Shown: piece by piece, positions 1 through 8,576 of the stretch
Layout: the number at the start of each line of letters is the position of its first letter
How positions within the stretch are numbered: the first letter of the stretch is position 1
Source of the DNA: Sedimentibacter hydroxybenzoicus DSM 7310
GTDB lineage: Bacteria; Bacillota; Clostridia; Tissierellales; Sedimentibacteraceae
Direction of reading: 5' to 3'
Assembly (NCBI RefSeq): GCF_013403245.1
Contig: NZ_JACBNQ010000004.1
Coordinates: 124,001-188,000, forward strand
DNA: 64,000 nucleotides
Made by a program: the position numbers and the translations under genes
The notes under the pieces: model-generated
Told to the model about the DNA's origin: nothing
Databases searched by the model: none
The model's input: only the letters and a program-made list of their open reading frames with translations

Positions 1-48
1 TAACGTAATATTGAATAGATAACAGAACAAATAAGTTTACATTATATA

Positions 49-96
49 GGCAGCACAGGATGGTATGTAAATATGGGTTCAACTCCCATTGCTGCA
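49..96 (+). other. tRNA-like hairpin (acceptor plus T-arm only)
   Basis: A 6-bp outer stem (GCAGCA at 50-55 with TGCTGC at 90-95) encloses a perfect 5-bp T-arm with a 7-base loop of TTCAACT (73-89). Only 17 bases separate the first acceptor strand from the T-arm, so there is no room for D and anticodon arms. It lies in the leader of the first gene. This is not a normal tRNA. It may be a structured leader or a tRNA mimic; function unknown. Confidence 0.5.
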
Positions 97-143
97 AGGG
101 GTTCTATATGGGCTACTAATAAAAATACATTGGAGGAAATTAA

Positions 144-617
144 ATGGAGAATATTGTTATTAATGGAGTAGAGGTTTCAGAGGTTAGAGGGATTAGTATT
201 GAAGACCTTTACAAGGTGTATCAAGAGGCTGTAGAAGAAGATATTCCTTATTATGTAGAAGCGAACTGTCTGGTTCAGTTTGATACTGAATATAAGCCAC
301 TTGAAGCCTATCTTTGTATCTCTCGTGAGGGGGATGAATGTTGGTCTTATGTAGATTTTCCATTCACATGGAAAAATGGATGGACTGAAAAAATGTACTA
401 TGCCATAAAGATAAACCTCTTAGAAAGTGAAGTTACGGTACAATCTGAATTTTTGGAGGGTTATCCTTATGATAGGTTAGGTGAGCCACTTGTAGGCATC
501 ACAGATGAAGAAGTTGAAGAGTGGGAAGAGGGAGTTGCAAAATACAGAGAAGAATACGCTCAAAGTATAGAATTTAGGTTTTTTGAGGAAATTGTAGAAG
601 AACTGATAGAGGGTTAA
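144..617 (+). CDS. Hypothetical acidic element protein (157 aa)
   Basis: No family recognised. The product is strongly acidic (Glu-rich, especially the last 40 residues), with no signal peptide or membrane segment, so it is probably cytoplasmic. The start at 144 has a good ribosome site (GGAGGAAATTAA then ATG). It follows the tRNA-like hairpin at 49-96, and its stop codon TAA is the loop of a short AGAGGG/CCCTCT stem followed by a T-run. It belongs to a run of small co-oriented unknown genes typical of conjugative or integrative element cargo. Confidence 0.6.
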   Translation: MENIVINGVEVSEVRGISIEDLYKVYQEAVEEDIPYYVEANCLVQFDTEYKPLEAYLCISREGDECWSYVDFPFTWKNGWTEKMYYAIKINLLESEVTVQSEFLEGYPYDRLGEPLVGITDEEVEEWEEGVAKYREEYAQSIEFRFFEEIVEELIEG

Positions 618-627
618 CCCTCTTTTA
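608..627 (+). terminator. Short terminator overlapping a stop codon
   Basis: AGAGGG (608-613) pairs with CCCTCT (618-623) around the TAA stop of the upstream gene, followed by TTTT. The 6-bp stem is weak. Confidence 0.45.
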
Positions 628-688
628 GCAGGGGCATGGGTGCTAAGTGGAAAATTCATTTATAGGGGTTCAATTCCCCTATCCTGTA
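627..688 (+). other. Second T-arm-like hairpin
   Basis: A 6-bp stem TAGGGG/CCCCTA with the 7-base loop TTCAATT (663-681) looks like a tRNA T-arm. CAGG (629-632) can pair with CCTG (683-686) as a partial acceptor. It occupies the gap between two small genes, the same setting as the element at 49-96. Confidence 0.4.
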
Positions 689-734
689 TACCCTACGGGG
701 TTTCCATAAACAGAGAAAGGAGGAAGTCTTTTAT

Positions 735-1016
735 ATGATTAAAGAAAATAGTTTATTTTTTGCAACAGATTTTCCACAAGAGCAGATTTTTATTTTGGCT
801 GTGATTGGTGAATCAGTACCAAATTTAAGTTATGATGAGGTACAATTAACCTTTTATACAGGTTATCAAGGTACGGGTAAAATGATTTGGTTTGATACGT
901 TTATCGTAGAAGATTATATATTAGAGGACAGAGAAGATTTACAAGAGATAGTTGAGAACTATTTTGAAAAAGATGAAACTTTGAGTATGGCAAAAAGAGC
1001 ATTAGAGGAAAGATAA
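735..1016 (+). CDS. Hypothetical small protein (93 aa)
   Basis: No family recognised. The product is a small soluble acidic protein with no membrane segment. The middle is rich in aromatic residues, and the last third (about residues 65-93) is predicted helical and acidic. The start has the ribosome site AAAGGAGGAAG 10 bases upstream. It follows the second T-arm-like hairpin and precedes a clear terminator at 1082-1112, so it is probably the last gene of the first short transcription unit. Confidence 0.55.
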   Translation: MIKENSLFFATDFPQEQIFILAVIGESVPNLSYDEVQLTFYTGYQGTGKMIWFDTFIVEDYILEDREDLQEIVENYFEKDETLSMAKRALEER

Positions 1017-1081
1017 TAGTTTTGAAAAATAGATAACAATAAAATCTCATTTGGATTTTGCTATAGGCATATCAAAAATTG

Positions 1082-1112
1082 CTGTGTCAGAACTGACACA
1101 GTATATTTTTTT
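1082..1112 (+). terminator. Rho-independent terminator
   Basis: CTGTGTCA (1082-1089) pairs perfectly with TGACACAG (1094-1101) over a GAAC loop, followed by a T-rich tract. Apart from this, the 307-base gap 1017-1323 holds only AT-rich sequence and the ribosome site of the next gene. Confidence 0.8.
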
Positions 1113-1323
1113 CTCTTTTTTCATCTTAATTATTTATATGAAAATAAAAACTTATTTATCGTTCTTTAATCCGTAAAAATATGAAAAAATTATCCCTTGC
1201 TTAAAGAAAATATAGGATTGGACATATATAAAATTAGTTTTGGCTGATACGAACAATTTGAGTGACATAAAGATAAATTCCCTGCAGTTAGATTTATTCT
1301 AACTTAGAGGGGGTGAAAAAGTT

Positions 1324-1617
1324 ATGAAGTCAAGTATCAGCATATTTTTTGAAGTGCCTGAAATGGTATACAAAATTTTGGACATGGTAGCAGAGCAAGA
1401 CAATAATGTGAAATTGTATTGTATGGGTGGAAATGAAATCTTACTGGCAGGCAATCTACCAGAGGTTGAGGATTGTGAGGATGAAGATGAGGATTGGGAA
1501 GATATAGAAGATGAAGATGAGGGTGATTTAGAGTTATTTAAGAAAAATGTAAAGTGGGAAGATTTAGATTTAGATTTTGAGGATGATAGTTGGTGGAATA
1601 AAGATTTACCATTTTAA
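1324..1617 (+). CDS. Hypothetical highly acidic protein (97 aa)
   Basis: No family recognised. The first half (about residues 1-45) is ordinary in composition. The second half is dominated by Asp and Glu in runs (EDEDEDWEDIEDEDEG) ending in a Trp/Asp-rich tail. There is no membrane segment. Such charge patterns occur in DNA-mimic anti-restriction proteins and in histone- or polymerase-binding tails, but there is no direct evidence for either here. The ribosome site GAGGGGGTG is strong. The next gene starts 14 bases after its stop, so the two are co-transcribed. Confidence 0.6.
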   Translation: MKSSISIFFEVPEMVYKILDMVAEQDNNVKLYCMGGNEILLAGNLPEVEDCEDEDEDWEDIEDEDEGDLELFKKNVKWEDLDLDFEDDSWWNKDLPF

Positions 1618-1631
1618 AGGGGGTGTAGCAA

Positions 1632-1952
1632 ATGTCAGTTAATTTGGTTCCTGCTGTGATTGCAGTTAAGGCAGGTAAAGACAAGGCGGGTCAAAATGCT
1701 ATTGTGCATCAAGTGGCACAGATAACAACAAAGTGCTGCTATTACAATGTTGAGATTGTAGAAGGGTTTGTCAGTTTTGGAGGGTTAAAGGATATTAAAA
1801 AAGAAGCCATAAAGATTTTTGAGAAAAAGGCATACAGGTATTTAATGATTTATTCTCCTACACAGTTTACTCAAAATGAAAAAGAGTACAGGGAGTTTGT
1901 AGAGGAATTAGAGCAGTTTTATAACATTCACGTTAAGCAGTTAAGACCTTAA
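1632..1952 (+). CDS. Serine-resolvase N-domain-like protein without catalytic residues (106 aa)
   Basis: The product follows the outline of a serine-recombinase N-terminal domain. An N-terminal strand lies where YxRVS normally sits but reads VIAVKAGKD, with no Ser. A segment like the family's EIVExxxDEG follows (VEIVEGFVSFGG, near 40-50). Then comes IYSPTQFTQNEKEYREFVEEL (in pieces, near 75-95), aligning with the family's YSLDRFSRNEKEFLEFLEEL, in which Asp and both catalytic Arg are replaced by Thr, Gln and Gln. It has no C-terminal DNA-binding part. It is coupled to the acidic gene upstream and precedes a cluster of inverted repeats. The homology is inferred from reading the pattern, not from a search. 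A regulatory or structural role fits better than catalysis. Confidence 0.5.
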   Translation: MSVNLVPAVIAVKAGKDKAGQNAIVHQVAQITTKCCYYNVEIVEGFVSFGGLKDIKKEAIKIFEKKAYRYLMIYSPTQFTQNEKEYREFVEELEQFYNIHVKQLRP

Positions 1953-1983
1953 CGCAATTTTCTCAGGTGGGCTGGTTTCAGAC

Positions 1984-2297
1984 CTTCCCAAAATCCTATA
2001 GATTTTGGCACACTTTTAAATGGCGGTTTTAAGTGTCGGAAAAATGCCTTGCATTTTCCGACCGCCTATTTTTTCTATGTTTTGGGTATTAAAAAATACT
2101 GTTTTCATGAAAAAAAGGGTCAAAAGTGGCCTAAGTGTCAGAAAAAAATCTTCCCAAAAGGGGGATTTTGGGAAGGTCATTTTAAAAAATTCAGTGTATT
2201 GAGATTTGGGGGCACTGAATTTCAAAATTAGGTGCATTGATTTTGTGGGATAAAAACAGCATACGAAAACATTCCCAAAATCGGGGATTTTGGGAAG
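1984..2297. repeat. Cluster of inverted repeats (candidate protein-binding or res-like site)
   Basis: The 360-base gap 1953-2312 is full of dyads. Three copies of a TTCCCAAAATC-type hairpin occur at 1984-2008, 2150-2175 and 2272-2296; the last is a perfect 11-bp stem. A nested hairpin at 2022-2066 (GGCGGT/ACCGCC enclosing GTCGGAAAA/TTTTCCGAC) is followed by a T-run and probably terminates the upstream operon. A further AATTCAGTG/CACTGAATT dyad lies at 2188-2221. Short open frames here are not convincing genes. Position and repetition suggest binding sites for the neighbouring resolvase-like proteins, or a replication or recombination site. Confidence 0.6.
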
Positions 2298-2312
2298 ATT
2301 GAAGGTGGTTAT

Positions 2313-2849
2313 ATGATATGGGCTTATGTGCTTGAAAATATGGGCTTAGAGGACAATAGGAGCAATCAGAATATATTTTTACTCATAAATGATTTACAGA
2401 TACCAGATGATAACAGATATTTTGATACCAATTTAGATAGGCCAGAACTTGAAAGTTTGTTACAAGCCTTGCAATCAGAGGATAGATTGGCTATCAGGTC
2501 TGTTTTGGATTTAGCAGATAGTCTAAGTGATTTAATAAGTGTATTTCAAAAACTTACAGGAAAGCAGATAACACTATGTTCCTGTGAAGAAGATTATTTG
2601 TGCGGGACTGACTATTTGGACACGCTGACTGATTTTACACAGTTGTATGTAGATTTTGAGAAGAAAAAACAGGAGCAGTCTTATAAAAAAGCAGTTGAGG
2701 ATGGCACTGTTGGCAGACCTACAAAGAGCAAAGAAGTAGAACAAGCAGTATCTATGTATCAAAGTGGAAAATATAAGGTCAATCAGATTGAGAGCCTTAC
2801 AGGGGTAAGCAAGTCCACTCTATACAGATATTTAAAGAACGAGAAGTAA
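2313..2849 (+). CDS. Catalytically dead serine-resolvase homologue with Hin-type HTH (178 aa)
   Basis: The last 45 residues (GRPTKSKEVEQAV...VSKSTLYRYLKNEK) are a clear Hin/resolvase helix-turn-helix. The part before it keeps the family order: RPELESLL (normally RPxFxxLL), then VLDLADSLSDLI where LDRLGRSLxDLL is expected, a TDYLDTLTDFTQLYVDFEKKKQ helix (in pieces), and GRPTK. The catalytic Ser segment (YxRVST) is replaced by YVLENMG, and the Asp/Arg/Arg triad is gone. It should therefore bind DNA but not cut it. The start at 2313 has the ribosome site AAGGTGG just after the third TTCCCAAAATC hairpin, so autoregulation through these dyads is plausible. Family membership is fairly sure; the role is inferred. 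Confidence 0.65.
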   Translation: MIWAYVLENMGLEDNRSNQNIFLLINDLQIPDDNRYFDTNLDRPELESLLQALQSEDRLAIRSVLDLADSLSDLISVFQKLTGKQITLCSCEEDYLCGTDYLDTLTDFTQLYVDFEKKKQEQSYKKAVEDGTVGRPTKSKEVEQAVSMYQSGKYKVNQIESLTGVSKSTLYRYLKNEK

Positions 2850-2875
2850 ACAGATTTTAAGGGGGTATATCAATT

Positions 2876-3340
2876 ATGATATTTTTATTTAAGGATTACA
2901 GGAGAAAACTTTCAGGGTTATTAAATGAGTTATCTTCTCCAAAAGAATTGATATTGGTTGAGCAGGAAAACAAGGAGTATCAACTTCACGTTGAACAGGA
3001 CTATTTGCATTTGGTAGATTACAACGTAAATATTTATAGTGGGGTTTTCAGCAATTACACTTATACAGGGGAGTACGAACCTGACACAGCATCCTATTTT
3101 GGACATTACATTTTTTATGATAATAACACAGGGAAAAGGGTCTTTGAAAGAAGATGTCTGGACTTGAAAGAGTGCATTGAAGTGTATCTGACCATTGGCT
3201 TGGAGGGTGAGTATGAGAAACCTCAAACAGATAATATCAGGTGCAAATATTTTTTTGACAATGGGAAATTTTTAAGGGAAAAAGTGATACCTATGTCCTG
3301 CATTGAAAGCTGGGGAAAATTTGAGGTTTGGGAGCAGTAA
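2876..3340 (+). CDS. Hypothetical protein (154 aa)
   Basis: No family recognised. The product is soluble, rich in Tyr and acidic residues, with alternating strand-like segments and no signal or membrane segment. The ribosome site AAGGGGG precedes the ATG. The gene follows the resolvase-like gene by 26 bases in the same direction and is probably co-transcribed. The gap after it (3341-3465) contains a hairpin and then the tyrosine recombinase gene. Confidence 0.55.
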   Translation: MIFLFKDYRRKLSGLLNELSSPKELILVEQENKEYQLHVEQDYLHLVDYNVNIYSGVFSNYTYTGEYEPDTASYFGHYIFYDNNTGKRVFERRCLDLKECIEVYLTIGLEGEYEKPQTDNIRCKYFFDNGKFLREKVIPMSCIESWGKFEVWEQ

Positions 3341-3349
3341 AAATATCAC

Positions 3350-3422
3350 TGCGTTAAATATAGAGAATAAGAAAAATGTTGCCGGTAGCAGACCTTTAAA
3401 TCTGCTATCAGCAATAAACGCA
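3350..3422. repeat. Nested inverted repeat upstream of the tyrosine recombinase
   Basis: A 14-bp stem with one mismatch and one wobble (3379-3392 with 3401-3414, TTGCCGGTAGCAGA/TCTGCTATCAGCAA) sits inside an outer TGCGTT (3350-3355) and AACGCA (3417-3422) pair. It may be an attachment or arm site for the adjacent recombinase, or a transcription attenuator. Confidence 0.5.
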
Positions 3423-3474
3423 AAGTGAGTATGTAGTTTAAGGAAATTTTAGATTTTAGAAGGGGATGAAAAAT

Positions 3475-4056
3475 ATGGCCAATAAAAAAACAAGAGCAAT
3501 AGACAAACAAGAGTTTGAATTGATAATATCTACTATCCAGAAGGGATTTATCACAAATACGGGGCAAAGGATTAGACCCAATGTGAGAGTAGCTGCTACT
3601 CTTTGTTGTGAGGCCAATCTGGGGCTACGCATTGGGGATATAGTCAAGTTGAAATTATCTGATATTGTTTATGAGAGTGGCAGATACCACTTGGATATCA
3701 TAGAAGAAAAGACTAGAAAAAAGAGGACATTCACTGTTCCACATGAGATTTACACCTACTTACAGGGTTACGCTTTAGAAAACAGTATAAAACCAAGGCA
3801 GAGGTTATTTGATATGACTGTAAGAGCAGTACAGAGCCATTTGAAACTTGCTACTGATTATTTGGGGTTAGAAAATGTATCTACGCATTCATTTCGCAAG
3901 TTTTTTGCTAATTCTATCTATCAGCAGGATTATAATGTTGAAATTGTAAGGACACTGCTAAATCATAGCAGTATCGCAGTTACACAGCATTATCTAAGTG
4001 TAGATACTAAACAGGTAGAACAGGCTTTACAAAAGCATATTGTTTTACCAGCATAA
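3475..4056 (+). CDS. Compact tyrosine recombinase (phage-integrase family)
   Basis: This is a DNA strand-exchange enzyme reduced to little more than the catalytic domain (193 aa). Visible catalytic residues are R52 (GLRIGD), a Lys in the beta-hairpin near 79-82, H138 and R141 (THSFRKFF), H164 (LLNHSS) and Tyr173 (TQHYLSV). The usual N-terminal SAM-like core-binding domain is almost absent, with only about 40 residues before the catalytic fold. The ATG at 3466 abuts the AAGGGG ribosome site, so the ATG at 3475 is preferred. The gene is followed by a terminator. It may resolve element dimers or excise a cassette; integration of the whole element is more likely done by the large serine recombinase downstream. 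Confidence 0.85.
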   Translation: MANKKTRAIDKQEFELIISTIQKGFITNTGQRIRPNVRVAATLCCEANLGLRIGDIVKLKLSDIVYESGRYHLDIIEEKTRKKRTFTVPHEIYTYLQGYALENSIKPRQRLFDMTVRAVQSHLKLATDYLGLENVSTHSFRKFFANSIYQQDYNVEIVRTLLNHSSIAVTQHYLSVDTKQVEQALQKHIVLPA

Positions 4057-4060
4057 ATCA

Positions 4061-4100
4061 AAGAGCAGATAGAATTGAACACTATCTGTTCTTTTTTATT
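4061..4100 (+). terminator. Rho-independent terminator after the tyrosine recombinase
   Basis: AAGAGCAGATAG (4061-4072) pairs with CTATCTGTTCTT (4082-4093) with one G-T wobble, followed by a T-run. Confidence 0.8.
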
Positions 4101-4272
4101 TTTCAAGAGGTCTATTAAAAAAAGAAATACACATAAAAAACGAAGTGTAGGACAGTTGCAGGGAAAATACACAACATATAACAGTCAAAAAACCTTACAT
4201 AAATTAACACAGTTACCAGTACAGAAGTACAGGTTTGAGAAAATCGAGTATTTTTGTAAGGTGTGATAGTGG

Positions 4273-4416
4273 TTGGGTAAAGATATAGAAACGGCTAAAT
4301 ATAAAGAAAATGCCGCATTTGAACGTTGTGTGGATTTTATGGCAAGAATGATAGAAAAGTATGGTCATGAAATTACAGAATTTGAAACTGAAAATTATAA
4401 TAGAAAAGCTTCTTAA
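4273..4416 (+). CDS. Hypothetical small protein (47 aa)
   Basis: This short frame has a TTG start and reads GKDIETAKYKENAAFERCVD onward, with an acidic helical composition. It is followed immediately by a terminator hairpin (4424-4450), which supports a real transcribed gene. The ribosome site is poor (AAGGTG 10-15 bases upstream), so the start is uncertain. No family is recognised. It sits between the two recombinase genes, where small accessory or directionality proteins are often found, but it has no visible DNA-binding motif. Confidence 0.4.
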   Translation: MGKDIETAKYKENAAFERCVDFMARMIEKYGHEITEFETENYNRKAS

Positions 4417-4423
4417 TTATTGA

Positions 4424-4451
4424 AAAGAACTCGTTTAGGGTTCTTTTTATC
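4424..4451 (+). terminator. Rho-independent terminator
   Basis: AAAGAACTC pairs with GGGTTCTTT (one wobble) around a short loop, followed by a T-rich tract. Confidence 0.7.
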
Positions 4452-4539
4452 TTTATATATACTTTCTAATTAAAATACGATATAATGGTTGGGACAATAA
4501 ATTACACTTGAATAGATTATATAAAGGGAGTTGACATAG

Positions 4540-6225
4540 ATGAAAAAGAGGTGTTACATATACACAAGAGTTTCAACGGAAATGCAGGTTGATGGGTATA
4601 GCTTAGATGCCCAAAAGGAAAAATTAACAAAGTATGCAGAATATCAGGAAATGGTTATTATGGGTGAATACTCTGATGCAGGTTCAGGAAAAAATTTATC
4701 AGGAAGACCGGATTTTTTGAGGATGCTTACAGATATAGAACAAGGTAAAGATAAAGTTGATTTTGTTTTAGTTTTTAAACTTTCAAGGTTTGGGCGTAAT
4801 GCTGCTGATGTTTTAAGTTCCCTACAACTTATGCAAGATTATGGGGTGAACTTGGTTTGTACGGAAGACGGTATTGATAGTAGTAAAGATAGTGGTAAAC
4901 TTATGATATCCGTTTTGTCCGCAGTCGCAGAAATTGAGAGGGAAAATATCCTTGTTCAGACAATGGCAGGTCGTAGAGAGAAAGCAAGGGTGGGAGAATG
5001 GAATGGGGGGTTTGCACCATACGGATATGATTTAATAGATGGTAAGTTGACCATAGCAGAGGAAGAAGCAAAAGTGATTGAAATTATTTATAAGCAATTC
5101 ACTACTACCAATATGGGTATAAATGCAGTAGCATCATATTTAAATAATAATGGGTACAAGAAGAAAAAAAGACAAAACGGTACTCTTGATGCCTTTTCTG
5201 CTTCTTTTGTGAAGTCAATTTTAGATAATCCTGTATATATGGGTAAGATTGCTTATGGAAGAAGAAAAAATGAAAAAATACAAGGTGAACGCAATAGATT
5301 TCATATTGTAAAACAAAGTGAGTATCCTGTTTATGATGGAGTTCACAAAGCCATAGTATCGGAAGAAATATGGAACACAGCACAGGCGAAGAGAAAGCAA
5401 ACAGGATTTAAATATGAAAAGAAATATAGTTTGGACCATGCTAATATTTTATCTGGAATTTTAAAGTGTCCTTCTTGTGGTGCTGCTATGTATGGGAATG
5501 TAAACAGAAAGAAAAAAGAAGATGGCACTTATTATAGGGATTACTTTTACTATGCTTGTAAACATAGGATGAGGATTAATGGGCATCAATGTGATTATAA
5601 GAAACAATGGGGTCAAGCCAAAATAGATGATGCTGTTGCAGAAGTTATTATGGGGTTAGTTAAAAATCCTAAATTTGAGCAAGCAATAAGAGATAAAATC
5701 AATTCAAAGATTGATACACAGGAGTTAGAATTAGAGTTAGAAAGTCTTAGAAAATCACATCGTCAAGCAGAAATGGCAAAATCTAAATTAGAGCAACAAA
5801 TTGATACCTTAGATATTACGGACTCCTTGTATGATAGGAAATATGAAGATATGCAAAACCGTCTATACCAACTCTATGAAAGGATAGATTCTATTGAAAT
5901 AGAGATAGAAGAAATTAAAACACGAATTCAGAATATTAACTTAGATAAACTTAATGCCGATAGCATTTACAACATTTTAAGAGTATTTGACCAGCTGTAT
6001 GATAAATTTACAGATTTTGAGAGACAAGAGTTTATAAAGAGTTTTGTTGAGAAAATTGAAATTTATCCAGAAACACAAGAAGATGGACGTATTTTGAAGA
6101 ACATAAAGTTTAGGTTTCCGGTCTTTTTTAATGGTAGTGAGGTTAACGAAATTAGTTGGGACTCAGAGAGTACAGTCGAGTGCGTGATTCTGATGCAGCG
6201 TTGTGGTATAGAGGGGAAAAGTTAG
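4540..6225 (+). CDS. Large serine recombinase (integrase of the element)
   Basis: This is a site-specific recombinase of the large serine type (561 aa) that integrates and excises mobile elements. The N-terminal catalytic domain has Ser12 in YTRVSTEMQ and the Arg motif KLSRFGRNAADV. The recombinase domain follows (about 150-270), then a zinc-ribbon (CPSCGAAMYGN near 310, with the later Cys pair in YYACKHR and HQCDYK). A coiled coil spans about 385-480, and the C-terminal tail contains KIEIYPE and TVECVILMQRC. The start has the ribosome site AAGGGAG, and a TATAAT box lies at 4481-4486. The gene sits at the edge of the element, like tndX of Tn5397, and the next sequence is a 5'-truncated yhcG, which suggests the element boundary lies within about 100 bases of its stop. 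A related tail without its body recurs at 25416-25512. Confidence 0.95.
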   Translation: MKKRCYIYTRVSTEMQVDGYSLDAQKEKLTKYAEYQEMVIMGEYSDAGSGKNLSGRPDFLRMLTDIEQGKDKVDFVLVFKLSRFGRNAADVLSSLQLMQDYGVNLVCTEDGIDSSKDSGKLMISVLSAVAEIERENILVQTMAGRREKARVGEWNGGFAPYGYDLIDGKLTIAEEEAKVIEIIYKQFTTTNMGINAVASYLNNNGYKKKKRQNGTLDAFSASFVKSILDNPVYMGKIAYGRRKNEKIQGERNRFHIVKQSEYPVYDGVHKAIVSEEIWNTAQAKRKQTGFKYEKKYSLDHANILSGILKCPSCGAAMYGNVNRKKKEDGTYYRDYFYYACKHRMRINGHQCDYKKQWGQAKIDDAVAEVIMGLVKNPKFEQAIRDKINSKIDTQELELELESLRKSHRQAEMAKSKLEQQIDTLDITDSLYDRKYEDMQNRLYQLYERIDSIEIEIEEIKTRIQNINLDKLNADSIYNILRVFDQLYDKFTDFERQEFIKSFVEKIEIYPETQEDGRILKNIKFRFPVFFNGSEVNEISWDSESTVECVILMQRCGIEGKS

Positions 6226-6318
6226 AGCTTTACCACTATATATTGTATTTTAGGACAAAAAACGTCTAAAATATGTGTTTAGAATAAAATAAGAATAACT
6301 ACACCTTGAAGAATTTAA

Positions 6319-7122
6319 GAGTTTGGAAGAGGGTTTTCCAGATCAAATCTGCAAAATATGAGGGCATTTTATTTAAACTATTCAATTTGCCAGACACTGT
6401 CTGGCAAATTGAATTGGTCTCATTATTGCGAGCTATTAAGCATTTCAGACAAAGATAAACGCAGCTTTTATGAAAAAGAAGCAATGAACTCAAACTGGTC
6501 AGTAAGAGAATTGAAAAGACAAATAAATACTTCTTTATACGAAAGGTTATTGCTTTCAAAAGGTGATATTAATAAACAGGAGGTATTAAATTTAGCGACT
6601 AAGGGAATTGAGTTAGCTAAACCATCTGATATGATTAAAGATTCATATGTGTTTGAGTTTTTGGGATTGCCGGAGAATAAGCCTGTTATGGAAAGTGATT
6701 TAGAAAAAGTACTTACAGAACAGATTGAAAATTTTTTGCTTGAGTTGGGAAGAGGGTTTATGTTTGTTGGAACAGAACAACGAGTAACTATAAATAATAC
6801 GCATTATTATGTTGATATGGTATTTTATAATAAGCCATTGAGATCATATGTACTAATTGAGCTAAAAACAACAAAGCTCATGCCTGAGGCAGCAGGACAG
6901 TTGAACATGTATTTGAATTATTATGAAAATGAAGTAAATGATGAAGATGATAATAAACCAATTGGAATTATTTTATGTACTGATAAGGATGCATTGACTG
7001 TTGAATATGCACTAGGTGGATTATCAAATAATATATTTGCTTCAAAATATACATATTATATTCCAAATAAAGAGAAGTTAATTGCTGAGGTTGAGAAGAT
7101 TGTGAGGAAGTGGAATTACTAA
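6319..7122 (+). pseudogene. yhcG: 5'-truncated YhcG-type (DUF1016) PDDEXK nuclease gene
   Basis: The frame reads FGRGFSRSNLQNMRAFY at its very start, which is the middle of the DUF1016 N-terminal domain. A TAA lies immediately upstream, so roughly the first 80-100 residues are missing. The ATG at 6358 would give 254 residues. The rest is intact: SWSHYCELL-like segment (here NWSHYCELLSISD), EKEAMNSNWSVRELKRQI, and a C-terminal PDDEXK-type nuclease core with YYVDMVFYN and VLIELKTTK. The family is predicted to be DNA-junction or phage-related nucleases. The truncation point lies about 95 bases after the serine recombinase, so element insertion probably removed or displaced the 5' part. Confidence 0.8.
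6380..6414. repeat. Perfect 17-bp-arm palindrome inside yhcG
   Basis: Bases 6380-6396 are exactly reverse-complementary to 6398-6414 around a single centre base at 6397; the inner part reads TTTGCCAGACACTGTCTGG. It lies within the yhcG coding region, just after the truncated 5' end. Confidence 0.85.
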
Positions 7123-7170
7123 GGAACAAATGGAAAATGGAGTGAAGTATAAAATGTCATTAAAAATGCA

Positions 7171-7272
7171 AATTTTCTTAGAAATATACCCTGCCACCAA
7201 GGGGATACCAGGTTCTGCGATCATCAAAATTGCAGCAACAAAGCATGTGGAGACAGTTTTAAAAAAATCAGT
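7171..7272 (+). pseudogene. Gene-3'-end scar, copy 1 (VETV tail)
   Basis: A short frame reads FLEIYPATKG, then an IIKIAATKHVETVL stretch, then a stop near 7275. The IYP and HVExV pieces resemble the C-terminal tail of the serine recombinase at 4540-6225. HVETV is also the classic C-terminus of RlmD/TrmA RNA methyltransferases. Related scraps occur at 17041, 25416 and 30585. It is the remains of a longer gene whose upstream part is absent. Confidence 0.5.
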
Positions 7273-7299
7273 ATAAATAAAGTAGGTATTGAAAGTACA

Positions 7300-7337
7300 G
7301 CAAGATAAGGATTAATATTTCTTACCTTGCTTTTTAA
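7300..7337. terminator. Bidirectional terminator between yhcG side and aldo/keto reductase
   Basis: GCAAGATAAG (7300-7309) pairs with CTTACCTTGC (7321-7330, one wobble), followed by TTTTT. The downstream sequence resembles the terminator-plus-promoter units at 15300 and 35890. Confidence 0.65.
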
Positions 7338-7373
7338 TTTTTCTTGTTGCAGAAATTTATAAATTATTATAAA

Positions 7374-8576
7374 TCAAGCGTTTTTGGATTTCCGTTCCCT
7401 TATTTTTATAAACATTGATACCATAGGCTTATACCAAAACGGCTCCATACGCTTCTTAACGCTTTGAAGCGATTGAATTATGGGAATTTGTTGTGGACAA
7501 TGCTTTTCGCATTTCCCGCATTTTCTACACTGGCTTGCGGCGTAGTTTTTGCTGGGGTCTGTTGCACCCGTACTTGTCATGTACTGATTGAAGCCGCTAA
7601 ACCGTCCAACCGCATAGGACATATTATAAGCCGCAAAGCAACCTGGAATATTGACTTTGTGCGGACAGGGCATACAGTAGTTGCAGCCCGTACAGGGGAT
7701 TTTATATGAATTGTTAAATGCCTCGACAACCAATTGGAAAACCGCCGTTTCCGCTTCTGTCAGCATATTCGGGACAGCGCAACTTGCGATTTTCAGATTT
7801 TCTTCCAACTGTGCGGCGGCGTTCATACCCGAAAGTACCACCGTAATTTCGGGCTGATTCCATAGCCAGCGAAATGCCCATTCAGCAGGGGAACAGGAAT
7901 GATTGGCGTTCCTGAATATTTTTTGTGCCTTTTGGGGTAGGCTGTTTGCCAATGACCCACCGAGCAACGGCTCCATGATGATAACGGGAAGCCCTTTATC
8001 AGCAGCGCGTTTCAATCCGGCAGCGCCCGCCTGATATTCGGTATTGATGTAGTTGTATTGGATTTGGCAAAAATCCCAATCATATAAATCCAGCAAAGCC
8101 ATAAATTCCTTTTGCGCACCATGAAAAGAAAATCCAATCTGCCGGATTTGTCCGATGTCCTTTTTCGTACTAAGCCAGCTTTCAATACCCATATCGCAAA
8201 GCCTCTTCCATAGCTTTGTATCGGAAAGGTTGTGCATAAGGTAATAATCAAAATGATCTGTGTGCAGACGGTCGAGTTGCTCGTTAAATAACGTGTCAAA
8301 ATCTTCCGGACTTTGGCATTTTCCAAGTGGTAACTTCGTTGCAAGATAAATTTGGTCGCGGATTTCATTTTTGTGTATGATTTCCCCCAACGCCTCTTCG
8401 CAGCCGCCGTAAATGTATGCCGTATCAAAGTAGTTAATTCCGTGCTCTACGGCACCTATAATCAGCTCTTCAGTTTTTACTATATCAATTTGTCCCCTAC
8501 TGCGTGGAAAACGCATACAGCCAAAACCTAATATAGACAGTTTATTCTCGGATATTGGATCAATGCGATATTGCAT
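7374..8576 (-). CDS. Aldo/keto reductase with C-terminal 4Fe-4S domain
   Basis: This is an NAD(P)H-dependent reductase of the aldo/keto reductase superfamily fused to a ferredoxin-like domain (400 aa). The barrel shows the Asp/Tyr pair NYFDTAYIYGG, the Lys in LATKLPLG and the His in YYLMHN. Two Cys clusters follow: CTGCNYCMPCPHKVNIP (about 290) and CRKCGKCEKHCP (about 350). The substrate is unknown; electron transfer between NAD(P)H and a carbonyl through iron-sulfur clusters is likely. An ATG at 8594 overlaps the upstream gene's stop, but the ATG at 8576 follows a good AGAGGTGA site and gives the usual MQYR start. The gene is 10 bases after the NAD(P)-binding protein gene and co-transcribed with it. 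GC content is higher than in neighbouring mosaic DNA. Confidence 0.9.
   Translation of the reverse strand: MQYRIDPISENKLSILGFGCMRFPRSRGQIDIVKTEELIIGAVEHGINYFDTAYIYGGCEEALGEIIHKNEIRDQIYLATKLPLGKCQSPEDFDTLFNEQLDRLHTDHFDYYLMHNLSDTKLWKRLCDMGIESWLSTKKDIGQIRQIGFSFHGAQKEFMALLDLYDWDFCQIQYNYINTEYQAGAAGLKRAADKGLPVIIMEPLLGGSLANSLPQKAQKIFRNANHSCSPAEWAFRWLWNQPEITVVLSGMNAAAQLEENLKIASCAVPNMLTEAETAVFQLVVEAFNNSYKIPCTGCNYCMPCPHKVNIPGCFAAYNMSYAVGRFSGFNQYMTSTGATDPSKNYAASQCRKCGKCEKHCPQQIPIIQSLQSVKKRMEPFWYKPMVSMFIKIRERKSKNA

Follow-up and report, generated by a model that had tools for sequence, protein, structure and literature searches.

DNA cutting is what serine recombinases are known for, and such regulatory roles as they have hinge on recombination. 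What, then, is a serine resolvase for once the residues that cut DNA have been replaced? This question is raised by the first part of the window, the whole stretch of 64,000 nucleotides from Sedimentibacter hydroxybenzoicus DSM 7310 that was analysed. Positions 1-6300 make up the right-hand portion of an integrated element, at whose right end lies a large serine recombinase (Table 1). A sequence-only reading had placed open reading frames of 106 and 178 aa here, and both are indeed in the list of open reading frames. It took the two for resolvase homologues stripped of their catalytic residues and proposed that a recombinase fold had been recruited as a DNA-binding factor. We believe it moderately probable that the 178-aa resolvase has lost cleavage and been kept as a sequence-specific, probably self-regulating DNA-binding protein, which the 106-aa protein probably modulates. 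Among the matches listed in the literature searched, most of it outside subscription journals, neither a gene pair of this kind nor dead resolvases linked to SulP genes are described.

Table 1. Features of the right-hand part of the element, in the order in which they stand in the window
Feature	Position	Strand	Remarks
Acidic ORF, 97 aa	1324..1617	+	First in its transcription unit; ORF list
"Short" protein, 106 aa	1632..1952	+	Predicted four-stranded Rossmann-like domain; E-helix and HTH absent
Gap between the 106-aa and 178-aa genes	1953-2312		360 bp; holds the repeats
Palindromic site 1	1985..2011	.	TTCCCAAAA-N9-TTTTGG
GC-rich hairpin followed by a T-run	2022..2075	+	-18.9 kcal/mol, z -3.1 (fold)
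Single TTTTGGG	2080..2086	+	Within ATGTTTTGGGTATTAAA; ATGTTTTGGGTAT present also in L040 and L068
Palindromic site 2	2151..2174	.	TTCCCAAAA-N6-TTTTGGGAA
Palindromic site 3	2272..2296	.	TTCCCAAAA-N7-TTTTGGGAA; ends 16 bp 5' of the long-gene start codon
"Long" protein, 178 aa	2313..2849	+	Resolvase of the small serine type, predicted to be catalytically dead; E-helix and HTH retained
ORF, 154 aa	2876..3340	+	3' of the long gene; ORF list
Tyrosine recombinase, 196 aa	3466..4056	+	Catalytic domain only; PF00589 4.2e-17
Large serine recombinase	4540..6225	+	YTRVST, KLSRFGRN; PF00239, PF07508, PF13408

The ancestry of the 178-aa protein is the firmest part of the argument, and here the sequence-only reading holds. 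Pfam finds both PF02796 HTH_7 (1.6e-9) and PF00239 Resolvase (4.2e-7) above their curated cut-offs. A profile of four members of the long family matches 11 active relatives with 99.8% probability over 173 columns. An AlphaFold model (pLDDT 89), built from a 24-row alignment that included active relatives, has the strand and helix order of a resolvase, a long E-helix at residues 101-129 and a C-terminus of three helices. DNA-bound Sin (2r0q, E 7.6e-8) is the best PDB match of this model, with gamma-delta and Tn3 resolvase next. The catalytic serine and the Asp/Arg/Arg residues are gone, as had been claimed, since the alignments show AYVLEN where active relatives have GYARVS (VLEN replacing ARVS) and SVLDLADS in place of the expected KLDRLGRS. 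By descent the 178-aa protein is a small serine recombinase of the resolvase/invertase kind; as an enzyme it is predicted not to be a recombinase.

The same cannot be said of the 106-aa protein, and the claim of two resolvase homologues stands for the longer product but for the shorter one is reduced to a compatible fold. The short product has no Pfam Resolvase match. In hhalign its profile matches neither active resolvases (P 0.07) nor the long family (P 0.033) convincingly, and reaches P 0.022 against the two together. Adding a short protein from locus L039 brings this to P 0.0013, a value that is partly circular. That protein, encoded downstream of the L039 long gene, is a 128-aa Resolvase N-domain lacking an HTH (3.5e-7), and is weakly related to the 106-aa protein (P 0.004). 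The 106-aa model, computed from four aligned rows at pLDDT 76, has a b-a-b-a-b-a-b, four-stranded alternating fold. Among the 50 PDB matches listed by Foldseek none has E <= 0.001; the top query TM-score, 0.61 (E 7.7e-3), is to the serine recombinase domain 3g13, with lumazine synthase and Argonaute MID, which are Rossmann-like and unrelated, in a near-tie among the matches listed. The model makes resolvase ancestry plausible, possibly as a stand-alone resolvase-type N-domain.

The sequence-only reading had proposed looking for the gene pair in other elements, and the outcome is mixed. L040 and L068 each have a relative of the short gene directly 5' of the long gene, the one in L040 being 42% identical. 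In L041 the long gene and its upstream motif stand behind a different small ORF, with no short gene on the contig, so the pair is not obligatory. A search of 391 genomes with the short pair was clear only in G000 and G581; seven other matches were weak. The acidic 97-aa ORF gave no significant match in family searches. Small ORFs occupy its position in L068 and L041, and a BLASTP search found no similarity between these and the 97-aa ORF, so homology is unsupported; the one match of the 97-aa ORF is weak (E 0.009) and runs through an acidic tract, to a different L041 ORF of 130 aa.

Is the long gene just a single damaged copy? The same dead form occurs at six other loci: G223 (L008/L039, a Tissierellia MAG), G581 (L040), G332 (L041), G627 (L051), G762 (L068) and G392 (L042), the last a match that ends 60 bp from the contig end and leaves the first 25 residues uncovered. 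The earlier reading had allowed that relatives might retain the catalytic Ser and Arg, which would make these genes only decayed copies. None of the five full-length orthologues aligned with the window protein does; all bear the same replacements (AYxxEN, DL), and the six full-length members, including the window protein, form one clade with support of 100/99. The replaced active-site positions are conserved in their new form, since A4, Y5, E8, N9, D66 and L67 are among the invariant residues of the four-row family alignment. The computed dN/dS values (NG86) among the long genes of G581, G627, G392 and G762 are 0.13, 0.15, 0.15, 0.37, 0.16 and 0.13, and those of near copies of the short gene are 0.20 and 0.08, all of them small comparisons among four near loci with shared branches; the neighbouring IS110-type transposase gives 0.10-0.11 for comparison. 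Both frames look to be under purifying selection by this measure. Relaxed selection and broken frames, the marks of a pseudogene, are absent from the long gene, the selection being judged from the four near loci. The shared replacements in relatives, together with these near-copy values, argue that the 178-aa gene is not a lone decayed copy.

The dead form is rare. It was found in 4 of 391 genomes of the class at E < 1e-30, 2 of 249 of the order at E < 1e-20, 2 of 398 of the phylum at E < 1e-80 and 3 of 14 genomes from the family to which G581 belongs, counts from overlapping samples that each take in G000 or members already known. One scan of genome contigs returned only L039. The long protein has two partial matches among phages and nothing fuller, and in viral contigs no relative was confirmed by the single protein, by the long or short alignments or by the 154-aa and 157-aa neighbours; the 157-aa protein had no match among plasmids. 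The 154-aa ORF of the window belongs to no significant family and has no relative in the nine neighbour loci compared. The long-gene stretch is 91-97% identical in DNA among G581, G627, G392 and G762, genomes under three different family labels, which suggests recent transfer among them.

In four of these loci (L040:10350-12026, L042, L051 and L068), from four genomes under three family labels, an IS110-type transposase gene with a conserved upstream non-coding stretch lies 3' of the dead long gene; it was Pfam-tested in one. We dropped the idea that transposase and dead pair form a single element, since three further IS110 copies in G581 occur without the pair. The whole L068 contig is 4549 bp long and its ends share exactly 127 bp, so it is either a circle or an assembly loop; it holds the short gene, the long gene, the IS110-type transposase and small ORFs that by eye resemble a toxin tail and an immunity gene.

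The gap between the two genes is where a DNA-binding role should leave its mark. The three hairpins of the sequence-only reading are real, with TTCCCAAAA and TTTTGG arms, but all three lie inside the gap and none stands just before the pair as had been stated. TTTTGGGA occurs five times exactly in these 360 bp, a count that none of 2000 dinucleotide shuffles reached. It occurs twice in each of the L040, L068 and L041 gaps (reached by 0, 3 and 1 of 2000 shuffles) and once in L051, where only 156 bp of upstream sequence exist. The 511-bp gap of L039 has no TTTTGGG and no TTTTGGGA, and the L042 gap is unreadable; TTTTGGGA is present at five of the six loci with a readable gap. The top 8-mer shared by the gaps of the window, L040 and L041 is TCCCAAAA, whose count product none of 300 shuffles attained, some 8-mer being common to the gaps in 120 of the same 300. 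Across the 3.8 Mb of its own genome, TTCCCAAAA-N5-10-TTTTGG is found at four places, three of them in the gap and the fourth at the start of an ORF that by eye is arginine-deiminase-like; the control pattern has 0 matches. With dimer-size half-sites present and enriched, the gap is a candidate res-type array. At the other long-gene loci, L040, L068 and L041 among them, the half-sites are not arranged as the window's palindrome.

A second group of dead resolvases extends the comparison beyond the orthologues. In this PY group (L005, L013, L020, L022, L025, L064 and L065) GYMRPY replaces GYARVS and KLFxxADS replaces KLDRLGRS. In six of the seven loci the gene is divergent from a SulP gene (PF00916), counting L022, where that gene is in two pieces and the 61-aa piece was tested; the neighbour in L064 is a sulfatase-domain gene. 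We presume that databases label the SulP-linked genes "recombinase family protein". TTTTGGG lies upstream of six of the seven PY genes, five of those as TTTTGGGA; its distance from the start is 74-82 bp in five genes and 235 in L005. L065 has no motif, and L064 has a full TTCCCAAAA-N8-TTTTGG palindrome. For 53 resolvase-like ORFs in the collected loci the 400 bp upstream were surveyed, and TTTTGGG is there in 11 of 14 dead ORFs, 4 of 32 active ones and 0 of 7 "mixed" ones. The survey took Thr for Ser, the "mixed" ORFs appear by eye to be active, and a fragment of a large serine recombinase entered the count twice. Without the five dead rows of the loci that yielded the motif the figures are 6/9 against 4/39 (P 0.0011), and the PY genes by themselves give 6/7 against 4/39 (Fisher 1.4e-4), both optimistic values given near copies such as L022/L025 among the rows. 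K-mer discovery with no prior motif was not significant in the regions upstream of six PY genes, a set that omits L025 because it nearly duplicates L022. We also considered TTTTGGG as an ancestral res motif of the active relatives and rejected it, the motif being rare upstream of them. In the trees a branch has the two dead groups together on one of its sides, whether or not the active-site columns are included, at weak support (67/97 and 73/96).

The six SulP-linked loci share features with the long family: Resolvase and HTH domains are present, the catalytic Ser and Asp/Arg are replaced, and TTTTGGG is upstream in 5/6, as it is in L064 beside its other neighbour. They differ from the long family in having their own replacements (RPY, LFxxADS), in being single genes divergent from a sulfate-permease-family gene and in having one site rather than an array. 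We suggest, tentatively, that serine resolvases of the Bacillota have given rise to an unrecognised class of regulators sharing the TTCCCAAAA half-site, with a chromosomal branch that would control SulP-type anion transporters and a mobile-element branch, that of the window, which would work with a second, DNA-binding-free protein. If this were true, the invariant E8, N9 and D66 at the former active site would make a new site for a ligand or partner. Should a conserved, selected lineage of dead recombinases prove to have its own operator, bacteria would offer a clear example of a recombinase turned regulator. The question of how many genes annotated as recombinases truly encode DNA-binding regulators becomes testable with it.

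PY proteins are possible regulators of the SulP-family transporters beside them. A resolvase clade in L026, L027 and L038 has GYCRATT, with Thr for the catalytic Ser, and KLDRFAKS, and its activity is doubtful. L102:1489-2037 encodes a third dead-looking resolvase (YVHQTG, QLRSLGKS), with TTTTGGG absent from the 400 bp upstream.

How might a resolvase work with cleavage gone? It could still dimerise through the E-helix and read half-sites through the HTH. Dimers of the 178-aa protein probably occupy the TTCCCAAAA half-sites of the three 24-27 bp palindromes before its own gene, where they would control transcription of the long gene and assemble a local protein-DNA complex. The hairpin at 2022..2075 is a probable terminator of the acidic-short unit, although it is absent from the output of a consensus terminator scan. 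Site 1 lies 5' of it and sites 2 and 3 beyond it. Autoregulation is the simplest reading because the sites flank this terminator and site 3 ends so close to the long-gene start. The 106-aa protein is encoded in the preceding unit and has no DNA-binding domain; it is a likely co-factor, which would most likely use its Rossmann-like domain to tune the long protein. The binding, the autoregulation and the part of the 106-aa protein we infer; for the idea of recruitment as a DNA-binding factor, the shared replacements, the purifying selection and the recurrence of TTTTGGGA in independent lineages together give partial support.

Precedent for a resolvase acting in this way comes from Sin, which has no catalytic activity when bound at its regulatory site II; it can bind repeats in either inverted or direct orientation and, in a reporter, represses an overlapping promoter (PMC2428073). 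The likeness to the 178-aa protein would go beyond the structural match, as Sin can act without catalysis on repeated half-sites (PMC2428073), as proposed for the 178-aa protein. Sin differs in retaining its catalytic residues and recombining at site I, whereas the 178-aa protein has lost them and has no evident crossover site. The gamma-delta and Tn3 resolvases share its fold, E-helix and HTH. Their res sites are clusters of dimer-size sites in the gap adjoining the gene, a layout that the candidate sites before the 178-aa gene resemble. Unlike them, the 178-aa protein has no catalytic residues, its sites are 24-27 bp and of one sequence type, and it has the 106-aa neighbour.

Accessory sites are known to direct recombinases in resolution systems. 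The dead protein could be such an architectural accessory, its dimers on the three palindromes forming a res-like synaptic complex that steers an adjacent active recombinase, either the 196-aa tyrosine or the large serine enzyme. Three dimer-size sites within 312 bp do resemble a res array, recombinases lie directly 3' in the window and also around the L039 long gene, and four loci have the IS110-type transposase 3' of the long gene. However, the neighbouring recombinase varies by locus, and no relative of the window's tyrosine recombinase was found in L039, L040, L041, L042, L051 or L068. The long gene is missing beside the three further IS110 copies of G581, and the PY group retains the half-site next to a transporter gene. 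We consider this explanation unlikely.

The hairpins may instead have nothing to do with the dead protein: they may serve as terminators in both directions, as an attenuator preceding the long gene, or as core sites for the 196-aa recombinase. All three palindromes fold as RNA (z -3.0 to -3.7) and two are terminator-like on the minus strand; arms of 9-11 bp around a short spacer also suit the core site of a tyrosine recombinase. What makes this quite improbable is that L040, L068 and L041 keep the motif but not the palindrome, and that the motif recurs at PY genes, in whose 3.4-kb loci no tyrosine recombinase was seen by eye.

We see a slim chance that the element was once circular and that the 178-aa protein served in its maintenance, through partition or replication control, with the repeats as its centromere or iterons. 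The tyrosine recombinase is, by its sequence, akin to plasmid recombinases (49% to pCY360, 36% to a 9.5-kb plasmid of C. difficile), plasmids being the only collection searched whole, and the scan of the genome shows the palindromes to be local to the gap. Against this, the long protein has matches at E 0.01 in 332 of 72,556 plasmid records, and just 6 of these cover 80% of it; the best 20 of the 332 are weak or partial, resolvase-type matches. The short protein and the gap DNA have no plasmid match, and no ParA-like or Rep gene was seen by eye among the ORFs listed. Decay of both genes from an active resolvase, for which the loss of every catalytic residue and the transposase genes that by eye crowd some loci might speak, is hardly credible when frames stay open in divergent genomes, the dN/dS values are as low as those above and a supported clade has residue-specific replacements in common.

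The surroundings of the pair deserve a brief description. The large serine recombinase adjoins a truncated DUF1016 gene, in which the DUF1016_N match begins at window position 6319 and at model position 59; a search of the same genome at E 10 did not recover the gene's left half. A comparison of positions 1-6300 with phages gave 10 records, every one matching within the stretch of the large serine recombinase. Rfam on bases 1-7500 gave one sub-threshold match, judged to be chance, and the tRNA search was empty. Two short tRNA-like folds lie at window positions 50-96 and 628-690, each just 5' of a small ORF and with the consensus T-arm GGTTCAAnTCCC; neither ARAGORN nor Rfam reported a tRNA there. 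Upstream of the window, at L004:17116-19524 (G000:C34), an 802-aa fusion joins a C5-cytosine methylase to a D12 adenine methylase. Its N-terminal part is integrase-like by eye (a weak SAM-like match, E 0.12), and its gene lies 5' of a tyrosine recombinase that has no N-terminal domain.
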